NCBI GenBank assembly: GCA_020845635.1
Contig: JADLFI010000004.1
Location: 62,001-126,000, forward strand
Direction: 5' to 3'
DNA from: Bacteroidia bacterium
Lineage (GTDB): Bacteria; Bacteroidota; Bacteroidia; UBA4408
Length of the DNA stretch: 64,000 nt
Below the pieces are notes generated by a model. It did no database searches. It worked only from the letters and a program-made list of their open reading frames with translations, and was not told where the DNA came from. Shown in pieces: positions 24,829 to 61,440 of this stretch. A program made the position numbers and the translations under genes. The first letter of the stretch is position 1; the number at the start of each line of letters is the position of its first letter.

Positions 24829-24860
24829 AAAAAAGCCGGTTTCAGGATAATGAAACCGGC
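24829..24860 (-). terminator. Intrinsic terminator between rpsP and rimM
   Basis: On the minus strand a perfect 10-bp stem (GCCGGTTTCA with TGAAACCGGC, 24835-24844 and 24851-24860) encloses a six-base loop and is followed by six T. It lies 20 bp past the rpsP stop, so most rpsP transcripts should end before rimM. Confidence 0.85.
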
Positions 24861-33464: not shown

Positions 33465-33830
33465 GGGGCCGACAGGTTTTGACAGCAAAATGTAGTTGAA
33501 TCGTAAGCATGTCGTGTGTTGTGAATATAGCACGTTAAATCTAACTCTCAACCTTTTTAAATGGCGAGTATAACTACGCCCTTGCAGCTTAATACAAGGT
33601 ATTAAAATGCAATGCCGGACAAAAAGCCCCGCTCATTGGCGTTTTGTTTCAGGCATCATAAATAGTGAGCTGCTTAAACAAAGCTTCGGTGTTTAATAAG
33701 ACTATAGAAGCTTAGGCAACTTGGTGGTATGCTTTTAAACCTAAATTTGCTGAATTAAAATTATTAGCTAAACATGTAGAAAGCTTTTTGACTCTTTGTT
33801 TGGACAGGGGTTCGAATCCCCTCGGCTCCA
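33465..33830 (+). ncRNA. ssrA: Transfer-messenger RNA (tmRNA)
   Basis: tmRNA rescues stalled ribosomes and marks the truncated protein for degradation. The 5' end GGGGCCGACAGG.TTT.GACAGC and the 3' end GTTCGAATCCCCTCGGCTCCA are the tRNA-like domain. The arms GGGGCCG and CGGCTCC pair over seven positions with one G-U. The internal reading frame at 33563-33592 encodes the tag GEYNYALAA followed by TAA; the resume codon is probably GGC. The length of 366 nt is normal. The 3' CCA is not encoded (ACTA follows), so it must be added enzymatically. The 3' end lies 26 bp before the convergent porG-like gene. Confidence 0.97.
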
Positions 33831-33855
33831 CTAATTGAAAAAATTATAGTAGTTT

Positions 33856-37585: not shown

Positions 37586-37801
37586 TGAATACAAATTAAT
37601 GAAAAAGAAGCTAATAAAAGCGTGAATATTCTTTAAAAGATGTAATTTTTCAACCCTTGTTAATGATTTGAAGCTAAGTATAACCAATTTTTCTTTTATC
37701 AGGGAATGAGTATTATAAATATGAGCAAGGATGAATTTCTGATTTTATGGGAGTATTGATACTATAATTACGATGAAATGGCGAAGGTTATTTGCTAAAA
37801 T

Positions 37802-37828
37802 AAAAAAGCCCCAATTTGGGGCTTTTTT
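37802..37828. terminator. Bidirectional intrinsic terminator
   Basis: AAAAAAGCCCC, loop AATTT, GGGGCTTTTTT: a perfect 11-bp stem with A and T runs on both sides. It ends the long minus-strand transcript of the 2569-residue protein (stop at 37851). Confidence 0.85.
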
Positions 37829-37850
37829 ATTTTACATTTTGAAATAATTA

Positions 37851-55698: not shown

Positions 55699-58668
55699 TT
55701 ATTTTTTTACTTCAACCATTTCGTATCCTTCAATGATATCATCAATTTGAATATCACTAAAGTTATCAATATTTAATCCGCATTCGTAACCGGTACTTAC
55801 CTCTTTAACATCGTCTTTGAATCTCTTTAAAGAGCCTAACTCTCCGGTATGAATAACAATACCGTTTCTAATTACTCGTACTTTGGTATTTCTATTAATT
55901 TTCCCATCAAGAACCATACATCCGGCAATAGTACCAACTTTTGAAATCTTATACACTCCACGAACCTGAAGATTGCACACTACTTTTTCTTCAAAGGTTG
56001 GGGCAAGCATACCTTCCATAGCACTCTTCAATTCATTGATGGCATCATAGATAATAGAGTAAAATCTCATATCTATTTGCTCCTGCTCGGCTAGTTTACG
56101 CGCGTTAATGGACGGTCTAACCTGGAATCCTACAATAATTGCATTTGAAGCAGAGGCTAATAATACATCTGATTCTGTAACTTGTCCTACTGATTTATGG
56201 ATAACTTTGACTTGAATCTTATCGGTAGATAATTTAAGTAATGAATCGGTTAAAGCTTCTATCGAACCATCCACATCACCTTTAATAATAATATTCAGTT
56301 CTTTAAAATCACCTATTGCCAATCGTCTTCCAATTTCATCAAGAGTAATATGCTTTTGGGTTCTATATCCTTGTTCGCGCTGTAATTGCAAACGTTTAGC
56401 AGCTATTTCTCGTGCCTCACGCTCATCGTTCATAACTTTAAATTTATCACCGGCTTGTGGAGCACCTGATAGGCCTAATAACAATGCAGGTGTTGAAGGA
56501 TCGGCTTGTTTAATGTTTGCACCACGTTCGTTGTTTAATGCTTTTACTCTTCCGCTAAAACAACCGGCCAAAACTATATCACCAACCTTTAAGGTGCCTT
56601 TTTCCACTAAAATGGTTGAAACGTATCCTCTCCCTTTATCTAACGAAGATTCAATAACAGTTCCTGAGGCATTTCTATGAGGATTGGCTTTTAGTTCCAA
56701 TAAATCAGCCTCCAAACATACTTTCTCTAAGAGAACATCAATATTGATTCCTTTTTTTGCAGATATTTCTTGGCATTGCACTTTCCCTCCCCATTCTTCT
56801 ACTAGAACGTTAATACCTGCTAATTCTTCTCTAATTTTATCAGGGTTTGCGTTTGGCTTATCAATTTTATTGATAGCTATAATTATAGGAACTCCCGCGG
56901 CTTGCGCATGATTAATGGCTTCTTTGGTTTGAGGCATTACATTATCATCGGCAGCTACAACAATTATTACTATATCGGTAACTTGGGCTCCACGTGCACG
57001 CATGGCAGTAAATGCCTCATGACCCGGTGTATCTAGGAAAGTTATTTTTCTGTTATTCTCCAATTTAACACTGTATGCACCAATATGTTGGGTAATTCCT
57101 CCGGCCTCACCGGCAATAACGTTTGCCTTTCTGATATAGTCAAGCAATGAGGTTTTACCATGGTCAACATGCCCCATTACGGTAACAATAGGTGCTCGAG
57201 GCATTAAATCTTCAGGCTTGTCTTCCTCATCTGCCGTATTTACGGTGGCTTCGGCTGATACAAATTCTAATTTATAACCGTATTCTTCAGCAACAATATT
57301 AATAATTTCGGCACTTAATCGTTGATTTATTGAAACGAACAAACCTAAGCTCATACAAGTACTGATGATGTTGTTTACCGGTACATTCATCATACTGGCC
57401 AACTCGCTTGCAGAAACAAATTCTGTTACTTTTAGTGTTTTCTTTTCAGATTCTAATGCCTCTAAATTTTCTTGATGCTGTTGGTTGATTATATCTCTTT
57501 TCTGCCTTCTATATTTCGAAGCGGTAGATTTTCCGGAACTGCTTAATCGGGCCAGCGTTTCTTTAACTTGTTGATCTATTTCCTCCTGAGTTAACTCAGT
57601 TTTTACAACATGATGATGCTGGTTCTTTTTATGGGCACCTGCTTTCTTGTCTTTAAGTTGTGTAGATTTATGAGTTTGTGATTGAGGAGTACCGATACTC
57701 TCAGAAGGTGTAAAGTTAGTAGGGTCAACGGCTCCTTTTGTAATTCTTTTTCTTTTTTTCTTAGCGTTCTTATCAAAATTAGTACTAGAGGCTACCGGTT
57801 TCTTCTTGTCTTCCTTTACCGGAAGCTCAATTTTTCCTAAAATGGTAGGACCTCCGAGTTTTTCATATTGTGTTACATGAACAGAATCAGTATTTGGAGT
57901 GTCTTTTGGAGATTCCTTTTCAACAGATTCACTTTCTATTATGCTGTTGGCAGGTTCTTCAATTTCATGAATTTCATCGGTTGTTATTTTAATTTCTGAT
58001 TCTACTTTTGAAATTTTAGCCACCTCTTCTTCCGGGTCATCAATCTGGGTTTTTTTACCTGGGCTTTCTTTTTTAGAAGTGCTCTTTTTTTCTTTTTTCT
58101 GTTTAGCCTCTTCTTTTTTCTCAGATGATGTCTTTTTTGCAGGCTTTGTTTTTTGGTTAAGTGAATCAAGGTCAACCTTACCCACAATTTTGGGATTATG
58201 AAGTTCTTCTGTTTTAACCTTTACGATTTCGATATCAGATTCAGATTGCTCCTTAGGCTTAATAGATTCTTCGTTACTAACCTCAGTTTTTGATTCAATA
58301 TTCTTATTAGTGGATGTTTCAGCATCACTTTTCTTTTCTCGGGTTGAGCTTAAAGCAGTGTCTTTTATAAGAATTTCAGGTTGTACATTAGTTTCCTGAT
58401 GAGAACTTGAAACACTTTTTTCTTCAGCTACCTGAGTTTCCTTTTTTTGTTTTCCACTTAAACTAAGTGCAATTGACTCTTCTTTATACGATTTATCACG
58501 CGCAAACTCTTTTTCAAGAATCTCAACTATTTCCCTGCTAAGCTTGGTGTTGGGGTTGTTTTCTATCTGAATGCCTTTTTTTTCGGCTTCTTCAATGATA
58601 GTTCCAATTCCAACGTTCAGCTCACGAGCCAGTTTACTTAATCTTATCAAATCTGTGTTTCCCGACAT
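55699..58668 (-). CDS. infB: Translation initiation factor IF-2
   Basis: IF-2 is the GTPase that places initiator tRNA on the 30S subunit and promotes subunit joining. The 989-residue product has an N-terminal IF2_N domain (about 5-55) and a long Lys/Glu/Ser-rich variable region (about 60-390). A second IF2_N-like domain lies at about 405-465, and the G domain at about 490-660 ([31 protein letters not shown]). Domains II, III and IV run to the C terminus ([14 protein letters not shown] near the end). The G motifs are complete. It is the last gene of the rimP-nusA-infB operon, 120 bp after nusA. Confidence 0.97.
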
Positions 58669-58788: not shown

Positions 58789-60039
58789 TTATTCAAATTC
58801 TGCTTTTAAAATATTTTTTACATCTCTAATTGTTTCTTCTTCAAGGTCTGTTCTTTTTACAAGTTCATCTAAGCTAAGTTCAAGTACAGATTTTGCGGTA
58901 TCGCAACCGATAGCTTTAAGTTCATCAATAATCCATTGTTCAATTTCATCTGAGAATTCATCTAAGTTTACGTCTTCTTGGTCTATGTCAGAGTCACGAT
59001 ATACATCAATTTCATAGCCAGTAAGTTTGCCGGCAAGTTTTATGTTATATCCGCCTTTTCCTATGGCTAATGAAACCTGGTCGGGTCTTAAAAATACTTC
59101 GGCTCGTTTATTTTCTTCATCTAATTTAATACTTGTAATTTTAGCAGGGCTTAAAGCTCGTGTTATATAAAGTTGTATATTATTTGTGAAATTTATAACA
59201 TCAATATTTTCGTTACGTAATTCACGAACTATACCATGTATTCTGGAGCCTTTCATTCCAACACATGCGCCAACCGGGTCAATTCTTTCATCATAGCTTT
59301 CAACTGCAACTTTTGAGCGCTCTCCCGGTTCTCTTACAATTTTCTTTATGGTTATTAAACCATCAAATACCTCGGGTACTTCTAATTCAAATAAACGCTC
59401 TAAGAACACCGGGGAGGTTCTGGAAAGAATAATTGAAGGGGTTCCGTTTTTCATTTCTACTTTTTCTACTACTGCTTTTACCATATCTCCCTTTTTATAA
59501 AAATCAGAAGGGATTTGCTCGTTTTTAGGGAGTACTAATTCATTTCCTTCATCATCTAATATCAATATTTCTCTTTTCCATACCTGATATACTTCTCCGG
59601 TAATAATTTCTCCTACTTTTTCTTTATATTTTCTATAAATACCATCTTTTTCAAGCTCCATAATTCGCGATGATAAATTTTGGCGAAGGGCTAATACTAA
59701 CCTTCTTCCAAAATCATTCAAATTTACAGGTTCTGTTATTTCCTCACCTAATTCAAAGTCTTTATCTATTTTATGTGCTTCGGATAAACTTATATGTTGA
59801 TTTTCATTATAATCAAAACTATCTTCGGCAAATTCATCATCAACAATTATTCTATTTCTCCACAACTCTAGGTCGCCTTTATCAATATTAATAATAATAT
59901 CAAAGTTTTCGTCTGAGCCGTATCGTTTAATAATCATAGTGCGGAATATTTCTTCCAAAATATTCATCATGGTAGGCCTGTCAATGTTTTTGAATTCTTT
60001 AAACTCTGAGAATGAGTCAATTAAATTAATCTTATTCAT
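58789..60039 (-). CDS. nusA: Transcription termination/antitermination factor NusA
   Basis: NusA binds RNA polymerase and affects pausing, termination and antitermination. The 416-residue product has the N-terminal RNAP-binding domain (about 1-130), an S1 domain (about 135-205, GEVYQVWKREILILDDEGNELVLP), two KH domains (about 235-345: VGACVGMKGSRIHGIVREL, SLAIGKGGYNIKLAGKLTGYEIDVY) and a C-terminal helix-hairpin-helix segment (about 365-416). The acidic repeat domains of E. coli NusA are absent, as is usual outside gamma-proteobacteria. It starts five bases after rimP. Confidence 0.96.
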   Translation of the reverse strand: MNKINLIDSFSEFKEFKNIDRPTMMNILEEIFRTMIIKRYGSDENFDIIINIDKGDLELWRNRIIVDDEFAEDSFDYNENQHISLSEAHKIDKDFELGEEITEPVNLNDFGRRLVLALRQNLSSRIMELEKDGIYRKYKEKVGEIITGEVYQVWKREILILDDEGNELVLPKNEQIPSDFYKKGDMVKAVVEKVEMKNGTPSIILSRTSPVFLERLFELEVPEVFDGLITIKKIVREPGERSKVAVESYDERIDPVGACVGMKGSRIHGIVRELRNENIDVINFTNNIQLYITRALSPAKITSIKLDEENKRAEVFLRPDQVSLAIGKGGYNIKLAGKLTGYEIDVYRDSDIDQEDVNLDEFSDEIEQWIIDELKAIGCDTAKSVLELSLDELVKRTDLEEETIRDVKNILKAEFE

Positions 60040-60044
60040 TATTT

Positions 60045-60494
60045 TTATTTAAAAGATATTATTACTCTTATTTCTTTAATTTCATTTATGTCAATACAAA
60101 CTGATTTTTCTTTGGGTTCTTTTTTTGATTTCTGATCTAAATTAAGTTCAATGATGTTTTCGTTTAATGTAGCCAAAATACCGGTATAAATTTTACCCTC
60201 TTTTGTAACGGATTTTACTTTTCGACCTATATTTTTTTTATACTGCTGATAAACTTTAAATGGCGAATCAGCACCAGGTGATGAAACAGATAACTCATAA
60301 TCTTCTTTTTCTCTATCTAATTTACTTTCCAAGAACCTGTTTAATGATGCACAATCGCTTATTTTTAATCCGCCAATCCGGTCAATTAAAACCAAAATTC
60401 TATTTCCGGGTTTTACCGCAACATCTACTATAAATACATCAGGGTCTTTAGGCCATAATTCAAATAATTCTTTTATTTTATGAACATCAATCAT
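60045..60494 (-). CDS. rimP: Ribosome maturation factor RimP
   Basis: RimP is needed for 30S subunit assembly. The product is 149 residues from the ATG at 60494. The frame extends to a TTG at 60503, but this lies directly on the T run of a terminator-like hairpin, so the ATG is preferred. The N-terminal domain (VFIVDVAVKPGNRILVLIDR.GGLKISDCASLNRFLESKL, DYELSVSSPGADSPFKVYQQYKKNIGRKVK) is typical. The C-terminal Sm-like barrel ends VIISFK. It heads the operon with nusA five bases downstream. Confidence 0.93.
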   Translation of the reverse strand: MIDVHKIKELFELWPKDPDVFIVDVAVKPGNRILVLIDRIGGLKISDCASLNRFLESKLDREKEDYELSVSSPGADSPFKVYQQYKKNIGRKVKSVTKEGKIYTGILATLNENIIELNLDQKSKKEPKEKSVCIDINEIKEIRVIISFK

Positions 60495-60504
60495 ATCATT
60501 CAAT

Positions 60505-60531
60505 AAAAAAGGGCCTCAAAAATTGGCCCTT
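60505..60531 (-). terminator. Terminator-like hairpin in the leader of rimP
   Basis: On the minus strand AAGGGCC (60525-60531), a nine-base loop AATTTTTGA, then GGCCCTT (60509-60515) followed by four more T (60505-60508). It is a 7-bp GC-rich stem with a T run of six counting the stem end. It lies 10 bases before the ATG at 60494 and downstream of a -7 box, so it could attenuate the operon. Confidence 0.6.
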
Positions 60532-60557
60532 CAAATCCGTAACTTTTATAAAACCCA

Positions 60558-60565
60558 CAAATGTA
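60558..60565 (-). promoter_or_regulatory. -7 promoter box of the rimP operon
   Basis: TACATTTG on the minus strand is an exact -7 box. The predicted transcript start is near 60553, giving a leader of about 58 bases that contains little besides the hairpin at 60505-60531. No clear -33 element. Confidence 0.5.
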
Positions 60566-60704
60566 ATAATTTTTTTTTGAAGAATTTTGGAGGTTGAAAA
60601 ATAAATAATAAAAATTTAACTTTTATTTCGTAAATTCAAATATTATTTATATCTTGCACCCTATAAAATACCAAATAAGGTAGATAAACACTAAATTTAG
60701 TTTT

Positions 60705-61034
60705 ATGACAATTCTTCAAAAACAAAGCATTAGAACTGTAAAATGGACTATTTTAACGGTTCTATTTGGTTTAATTAACCTTAGCCAAAAAGTTTTTGCG
60801 CAGGCTGAAGATCAAGCCGCTGTAGATACTACAGTGAACAAAACCACCCAAAAGGTATTTCAAGAAATTGGTAGGAATCTTGGGTCAAAAGATTCGTTAA
60901 CCAGCATAATCATGATAATTATTGTCTTGATTGTGGTAGCGATAGCGGTATATTTAAGTTTTAGAAGCCCAAGCGGAGAAACCAAACGTAAAAAAGTTCT
61001 TGAAAGACAACGTAAAAGAGGTCATCAAGGATAA
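60705..61034 (+). CDS. Small membrane protein of unknown function
   Basis: The 109-residue product has an N-terminal hydrophobic signal or anchor (about 14-31, ending KVFAQAED). A short acidic/Thr-rich segment follows, then a strong membrane helix (about 66-86, IIMIIIVLIVVAIAVYLSF) and a basic cytosolic tail (TKRKKVLERQRKRGHQG). The family is not recognised. It is divergent from rimP and its promoter is unclear. It may be a periplasm-exposed, two-helix or signal-peptide-cleaved membrane protein. Confidence 0.65.
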   Translation: MTILQKQSIRTVKWTILTVLFGLINLSQKVFAQAEDQAAVDTTVNKTTQKVFQEIGRNLGSKDSLTSIIMIIIVLIVVAIAVYLSFRSPSGETKRKKVLERQRKRGHQG

Positions 61035-61050
61035 TAAATTATCATTTTAC

Positions 61051-61440
61051 TTAATTACAACCACACTCTTCCGATTCTAGTATTTGTTGTAGCACAGCAA
61101 ATTCTTCACATAAACTACACTCTAAAATTTTTGTCTTCCCTATTGGTTTACTTAAGGTAATATAATAGCGGGGGCAAGGTTTTTCTCTTACCTCACTCTT
61201 ACTTAAATCAATTTCGGCTTTGGCCCATTCTTTTCTGAGTAGGGCTGTATCTGTTTCATTGCAGTTTAGTTGGCATAATGCTTTATTGCTTATTTGCAAC
61301 GGAAACCGTGTTAGTTTCTCTTTTATAACTTCTTTGGGTGTTTTATAAATGTTTCTTTCTTTAAGTACATAAAAGTACATAATTACAGAACCTATTACAA
61401 CACCTATTAAAAACAAGCGTAAACGTCTGGAAAATGTCAT
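61051..61440 (-). CDS. Membrane-anchored Cys-rich protein, possibly DUF4258-related
   Basis: The 129-residue product has an N-terminal membrane anchor (FLIGVVIGSVIMYFYVL). It is followed by a soluble domain with seven Cys in short motifs (LCQLNC, CPRYY, CSLCEEF, CGCN). The middle segment (ALLRKEWAKAEIDLSKSEVREKPCPRYY) resembles DUF4258-like domains of Bacteroidota, a weak match. The Cys pattern suggests a bound metal or disulfides. It starts 16 bp after the ald stop and is probably co-transcribed with ald. Confidence 0.6.
   Translation of the reverse strand: MTFSRRLRLFLIGVVIGSVIMYFYVLKERNIYKTPKEVIKEKLTRFPLQISNKALCQLNCNETDTALLRKEWAKAEIDLSKSEVREKPCPRYYITLSKPIGKTKILECSLCEEFAVLQQILESEECGCN

Follow-up and report, generated by a model that had tools for sequence, protein, structure and literature searches.

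The rimP-nusA-infB operon of this Bacteroidia bacterium encodes a ribosome-assembly factor (rimP), a transcription-termination factor (nusA) and a translation factor (infB), and a terminator-like hairpin lies between its promoter box and its first gene. This raises the question whether the operon is attenuated in its own leader and, if so, which factor would set the fraction of transcripts that pass. The locus was analysed within a window of 64,000 nucleotides, the whole stretch of DNA under study, and consists of the following features.

60558-60565, minus strand: -7 promoter box TACATTTG, read from the sequence (Bacteroidota consensus TAnnTTTG).
60533-60552, minus strand: predicted transcript 5' end, then an unstructured spacer of about 19 nt leading up to the hairpin, deduced from the box.
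60508-60532, minus strand: hairpin of 8 pairs, GAAGGGCC / GGCCCTTT, with a 9-nt loop, supported by folds, model R1 and covariation.
60505-60510, minus strand: six T in a row (U tract) behind the GC stem; of these, the first three are paired in the fold.
60045-60494, minus strand: rimP, which opens the operon (NF002531 ribosome assembly cofactor RimP, 130 bits with a cut-off of 123; PF02576, PF17384).
58789-60039, minus strand: nusA, second gene (TIGR01953, 382 bits; NusA_N, S1 and KH domains), the proposed sensor and target.
55699-58668, minus strand: infB (IF-2), third gene (TIGR00487, 795 bits).

Read on the minus strand, the order is TACATTTG (60565-60558), 25 bases, GAAGGGCC-AATTTTTGA-GGCCCTTTTTT (60532-60505), ATTGAATGAT and the rimP ATG at 60494. 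The 5' arm covers 60532-60525 (GAAGGGCC), the loop 60524-60516 and the 3' arm 60515-60508 (GGCCCTTT), and the whole element GAAGGGCC-AATTTTTGA-GGCCCTTT (60532-60505) ends with six T at 10 bases from the ATG. An earlier sequence-only reading had described a -7 box followed by a leader of about 58 bases, as well as a single GC-rich hairpin with a T run ending 10 bases before the ATG, and both descriptions were confirmed. The start site was set about 7 nt past the TACATTTG box by inference and not by mapping, which gives a leader of about 58 nt. A -33 element was looked for upstream of the box and no clear one was seen. Only 5 bases separate the rimP stop codon from the nusA start, and nusA lies downstream in the same predicted transcription unit.

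In order to assess whether the hairpin exceeds chance, its folding energy and its position were examined. The hairpin alone folds with -12.3 kcal/mol (z -2.4) and the whole leader with -12.7 kcal/mol (z -1.7); since 12 of 200 shuffled leaders folded equally well, folding energy alone is weak evidence and suggestive at most. Counting both strands, the 64-kb window has 108 TAnnTTTG boxes, and the TACATTTG box alone was followed by a terminator-like hairpin at no more than 35 nt. Two copies of the exact pattern GGGC-N3..16-GCCCTTTT were found in the 3.05-Mb genome, the second copy being located within a reading frame. These two counts, together with the conservation in relatives described below, confirm that the rimP-leader hairpin is real and beyond chance. 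A consensus terminator scan, which allows loops of at most 8, missed this hairpin with its loop of 9. Rfam was searched with the whole window at curated cut-offs and with positions 60400-60700 at an E-value of up to 10, and neither search gave a meaningful match at the hairpin; the sole match at curated cut-offs was a tmRNA gene (33465-33833, plus strand). Two further structures were observed in the window. At 37796-37834 (both strands) the symmetric AAAAAAGCCCCAATTTGGGGCTTTTTT forms a palindrome resembling a bidirectional terminator, and at 24835-24860 (both strands) a perfect 10-bp inverted repeat GCCGGTTTCA...TGAAACCGGC has a T run behind it on the minus strand.

The proposal depended on the hairpin being conserved in relatives, and this check did not refute it. 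A set of 186 rimP leaders was compiled from 23 named contigs (Bacteroidales and other Bacteroidetes) and from genomes sharing the window's genus, family, class or phylum. Of these 186 leaders from Bacteroidota and related classes, 165 have a terminator-like hairpin in the 150 nt preceding rimP, compared with 5-13 (about 8.5) for shuffled leaders and 8/183 for the next 150 nt upstream. Several undetected leaders show the hairpin by eye and were missed by the strict detector (e.g., L018, L100, L187). Within Bacteroidia the hairpin was detected in 117 of 123 leaders, 114 of which carry a G-rich 5' arm, typically in the form GAGGGGAC-n4-GTCCCCTC-TTTT.

In Bacteroidia the surroundings of the hairpin are conserved as well. 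A TAnnTTTG box precedes the stem by 6-29 nt (median 23) in 106 of 112 leaders (7.4 expected), four leaders (L017, L106, L111, L136) having been excluded because of a doubtful start or because another hairpin was possibly chosen. The predicted leader has a median length of 57.5 nt, nearly equal to that of the window. This frequency of promoter boxes places the hairpin within the leader of the transcript that carries the operon, and it makes it very improbable that the hairpin is the terminator of an upstream transcription unit, an insulator standing before rimP by chance. Such a role would be in line with similar stems that act as 3' terminators elsewhere, and with three leaders (L011, L016, L019) in which the end of a tRNA-Gln gene is at most about 60 nt away from rimP, right before the hairpin. 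However, the box stands between the upstream gene and the hairpin, and in the window the next upstream reading frame (60705-61034) is on the opposite strand. This frame (plus strand) and the adjacent 61051-61440 (minus strand) are both small and without Pfam or NCBIfam match. The tRNA-Gln(TTG) genes are located at L011:1884-1955, L016:1884-1955 and L019:1872-1943, an order similar to that of metY-rimP in E. coli, where a tRNA opens the operon.

The stem ends at a median of 17 nt (range 7-78 nt) before the ATG in Bacteroidia. Bacteroidota do not rely on Shine-Dalgarno pairing, and this, like the closeness to the ATG, could favour a 5' hairpin with a role in messenger protection or in the control of translation start rather than in termination. 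We regard such a function as highly unlikely, given that the distance to the ATG is variable and that the stem is followed by a T run, which is unnecessary for protection; in relatives, the 9 nt past the final C of the stem hold 6.9 T on average.

Base pairing of the stem was assessed by covariation in 61 distinct Bacteroidia hairpins (alignment A1) with 500 partner shuffles and a slid-helix control; the slide control removes the effect of relatedness, whereas the shuffle control does not. Standard pairs occupied 93.9% of pair cells, compared with 86.0% after shuffling and 42-72% for the slid helix. Double-sided changes were found in 36 cells (9.4 expected), and none of the 500 shuffles reached any of the observed values. 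One such double-sided change, from GGGGAC/GTCCCC to GGGGCC/GGCCCC, is present in the window's own genus. Model R1, built from the 61 Bacteroidia leaders including that of the window, matched 60537-60497 with 23.9 bits; as scores reach up to 45 bits, the window hairpin is a weak fit to the Bacteroidia consensus.

Outside Bacteroidia the stem is often wholly different while the hairpin and the T run are kept. Among 48 detected non-Bacteroidia hairpins the 5' arm was C-rich in 22 and G-rich in 22, and stems such as GTGGGG/CCCCAC, TCGCCC/GGGCGA, GTGAGCG/..CACTCAC and AGTCCCGC/GCGGGACT are followed by T runs with rimP nearby. Inverted arms (TCGCCC...GGGCGATTTTT), in which the G- and C-rich sides are swapped relative to Bacteroidia, were observed in L061, L070, L074, L079, L081, L082, L084, L151, L152, L157, L168 and L176. 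Four leaders of other classes (L155, L160, L164, L172) carry tandem terminator-like hairpins before rimP, the first G-rich and the second C-rich, which is the opposite order to that of the gamma-proteobacterial tandem. Sequence-specific binding of NusA to the GGGG/CCCC arms was weighed and set aside, because the arms of other classes are C-rich or unrelated.

Comparison with known systems identified the element as one of an established kind. In the description of Naville and Gautheret (2010; PMC2965389) the rimP-leader is the most ubiquitous attenuator, located in the 5' UTR of rimP-nusA-infB, with a GGGc(...)gCCC stem, a U stretch and no antiterminator in its general form. The window matches it by gene order, gene families and promoter box, by its stem (GGGCC-loop-GGCCC followed by TTTTTT, 60530-60505) and by its spacing: the described range is 4-130 nt before the gene, the window has 10 nt between T run and ATG, and all 117 of the 117 detected Bacteroidia hairpins lie within the range. 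The two also agree in having neither a larger conserved element nor an antiterminator. They differ in sequence: the Bacteroidia stem is mostly GAGGGGAC/GTCCCCTC, and in other classes the arms can be inverted (C-rich 5' arm), so that the published signature is not phylum-wide. The stem was also said to be specific to rimP leaders, which agrees in part with what was seen here: the exact motif has a single further copy in the window's genome, within a reading frame, but similar G-rich stems end other genes in Bacteroidia. "Bacteroid-" does not occur in the main text of that paper.

In the gamma-proteobacterial rimP leader (Rfam RF01770) the last hairpin, GGGCTTTAGGCCCTTTTTTTATG in E. coli, nearly equals the GGCCCTTTTTTAT end of the window, but RF01770 has a second, upstream CCCCG/CGGGG hairpin and the window leader has one hairpin only. 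Neither the window nor 12 relatives reached the RF01770 covariance threshold of 47 bits (E. coli control, 102 bits). The statement of the sequence-only reading that rimP leader terminators are known in gamma-proteobacteria was correct; it knew of none described for Bacteroidota, but a structured and expressed 5' element before rimP, kept in Flavobacteriaceae genera and without Rfam match, was noted in Flavobacterium psychrophilum in 2021 (PMC9723704). It concerns the same gene and phylum, and the main text of that report gives it one sentence, with structure and mechanism undescribed there. The main texts of two Bacteroides thetaiotaomicron transcriptome papers mention neither rimP nor nusA.

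As a genome-wide detector, model R1 was dropped as non-specific, because ordinary 3' terminators match as well; in the window's genome the generic terminator G000:C16:18941 scores 36.5 bits, above the rimP leader. Nineteen other R1 matches were inspected: two are rimP leaders of other genomes (L218, L227), most of the remainder lie at gene ends, many of them between convergent genes, and no second regulated gene was evident among them. The presence of similar G-rich stems at gene 3' ends means that the stem sequence alone is no proof of a specific recognition site.

An antiterminator was sought across the Bacteroidia leaders and none was found, pairing between spacer and 5' arm being lower than in shuffled sequences (1.34 vs 1.99); the leader offers little room for one and holds no complementary sequence. 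An elongation factor, and not an RNA switch, therefore probably determines how much transcription reads through. We consider it probable that hairpin and U tract act as an intrinsic terminator in the rimP-nusA-infB leader and form an attenuator of minimal type, lacking an antiterminator and set by NusA. RNA polymerase would start about 58 nt before rimP, the hairpin would be made within the first 45 nt or so of the transcript, and the polymerase would either stop there or read through into the operon. NusA is the most likely factor to set this choice: when plentiful, it would promote hairpin formation and termination and thereby lower nusA-infB expression, and when scarce, the polymerase would pass the terminator. 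NusA-set termination may in this way balance the operon.

Such a role is in agreement with what is known from other bacteria. NusA stimulates intrinsic termination, and the distal U tracts of NusA-dependent terminators in Bacillus subtilis are often interrupted (PMC8060035), as are those of many Bacteroidia members (TTTC, TTTA). In E. coli, NusA regulates the operon that encodes it, where two terminators precede rimP (PMC6511841), and NusA-stimulated termination in its own leader was reported for B. subtilis (Mondal 2016, as cited in PMC12288461). The B. subtilis nusA leader, as presented there, resembles the one studied here in that an intrinsic terminator lies in the leader of a nusA-bearing gene or operon. 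It differs in being longer (180 nt according to PMC2965389) and tested by experiment, whereas the Bacteroidota element is known from sequence alone. The attenuator could also be set by a different input, for example by NusG, RimP or IF-2, by nucleotide levels or by ribosome loading at the start codon nearby, or it could be a fixed damper without feedback. This alternative is possible but doubtful. NusG, too, stimulates intrinsic termination in B. subtilis (PMC8060035), and the hairpin ends close to the start codon; the autoregulation of NusA reported in B. subtilis speaks against it, and for RimP as the sensor the genomes that have lost rimP are informative. Naville and Gautheret had proposed NusA as the regulator and held RimP to be possible but less likely (PMC2965389).

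Fifteen genomes of the class or phylum lacked rimP by protein search or above the Pfam cut-off. The genomes G022, G030, G049, G062, G085, G095, G113, G123, G134, G149, G159, G172 and G285, mostly complete, and the reduced genome G031 have no rimP above this cut-off. In rimP-less Bacteroidota genomes nusA and infB remain together. The nusA locus was read in 11 of the 15 (L190-L200), leaving out three members of one genus and one genome without nusA match. A hairpin precedes nusA in 9 of these 11 loci. Model R1 finds it on the sense strand in seven (L190, L194-L199), with weak scores for L194 (E 0.35), L195 (E 0.05) and L197 (E 0.01-0.1), L192 and L193 have a weaker hairpin, and L191 and L200 have none. 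The automatic detector alone, with its own choice of start codon, found 6 of 11. Most of these nusA hairpins are preceded by a promoter box. In rimP-bearing loci no hairpin was found within 150 nt before nusA (0/84); nusA directly follows rimP in 84 of 86 such loci, the other two being incomplete. On the NusA tree the absence of rimP corresponds to six changes, at least four of them forced by well-supported branches, which indicates that rimP was lost several times. The presence of the hairpin before nusA in 9/11 rimP-less but 0/84 rimP-bearing loci shows that the element tracks nusA(-infB) and not rimP. This retention makes feedback by RimP unlikely, and for termination stimulated by NusA it is indirect support. 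Since infB likewise lies behind nusA where rimP is missing, the decisive factor may instead be IF-2, or nusA and infB as one unit. The attenuation of the operon with feedback by NusA, as originally suggested, is partly supported: it fits the comparative evidence (conservation and retention before nusA), while termination in vivo, NusA dependence and a physiological feedback in Bacteroidota are inferred.

The element is real, well conserved and ordinary in kind, and it had already been proposed in principle as the rimP-leader attenuator. New are the phylum-wide survey, the finding that stem sequences turn over from class to class, and the natural experiment provided by rimP loss. The rimP-loss comparison bears on the choice between RimP and NusA that was left open in 2010, in a phylum in which the control of termination is little studied. 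A broader interpretation, for and against which we find the balance even, is a small phylum-wide autogenous element (promoter, about 17 nt, hairpin, U tract, gene) that would belong to nusA and not to rimP, because after independent losses of rimP the hairpin was retained in front of nusA, and that would sense hairpin-dependent termination and not an RNA sequence, as the stem sequence is replaced between classes. Selection seems to keep the hairpin and its position rather than the sequence of its stem, which would argue for the sensing of termination itself.
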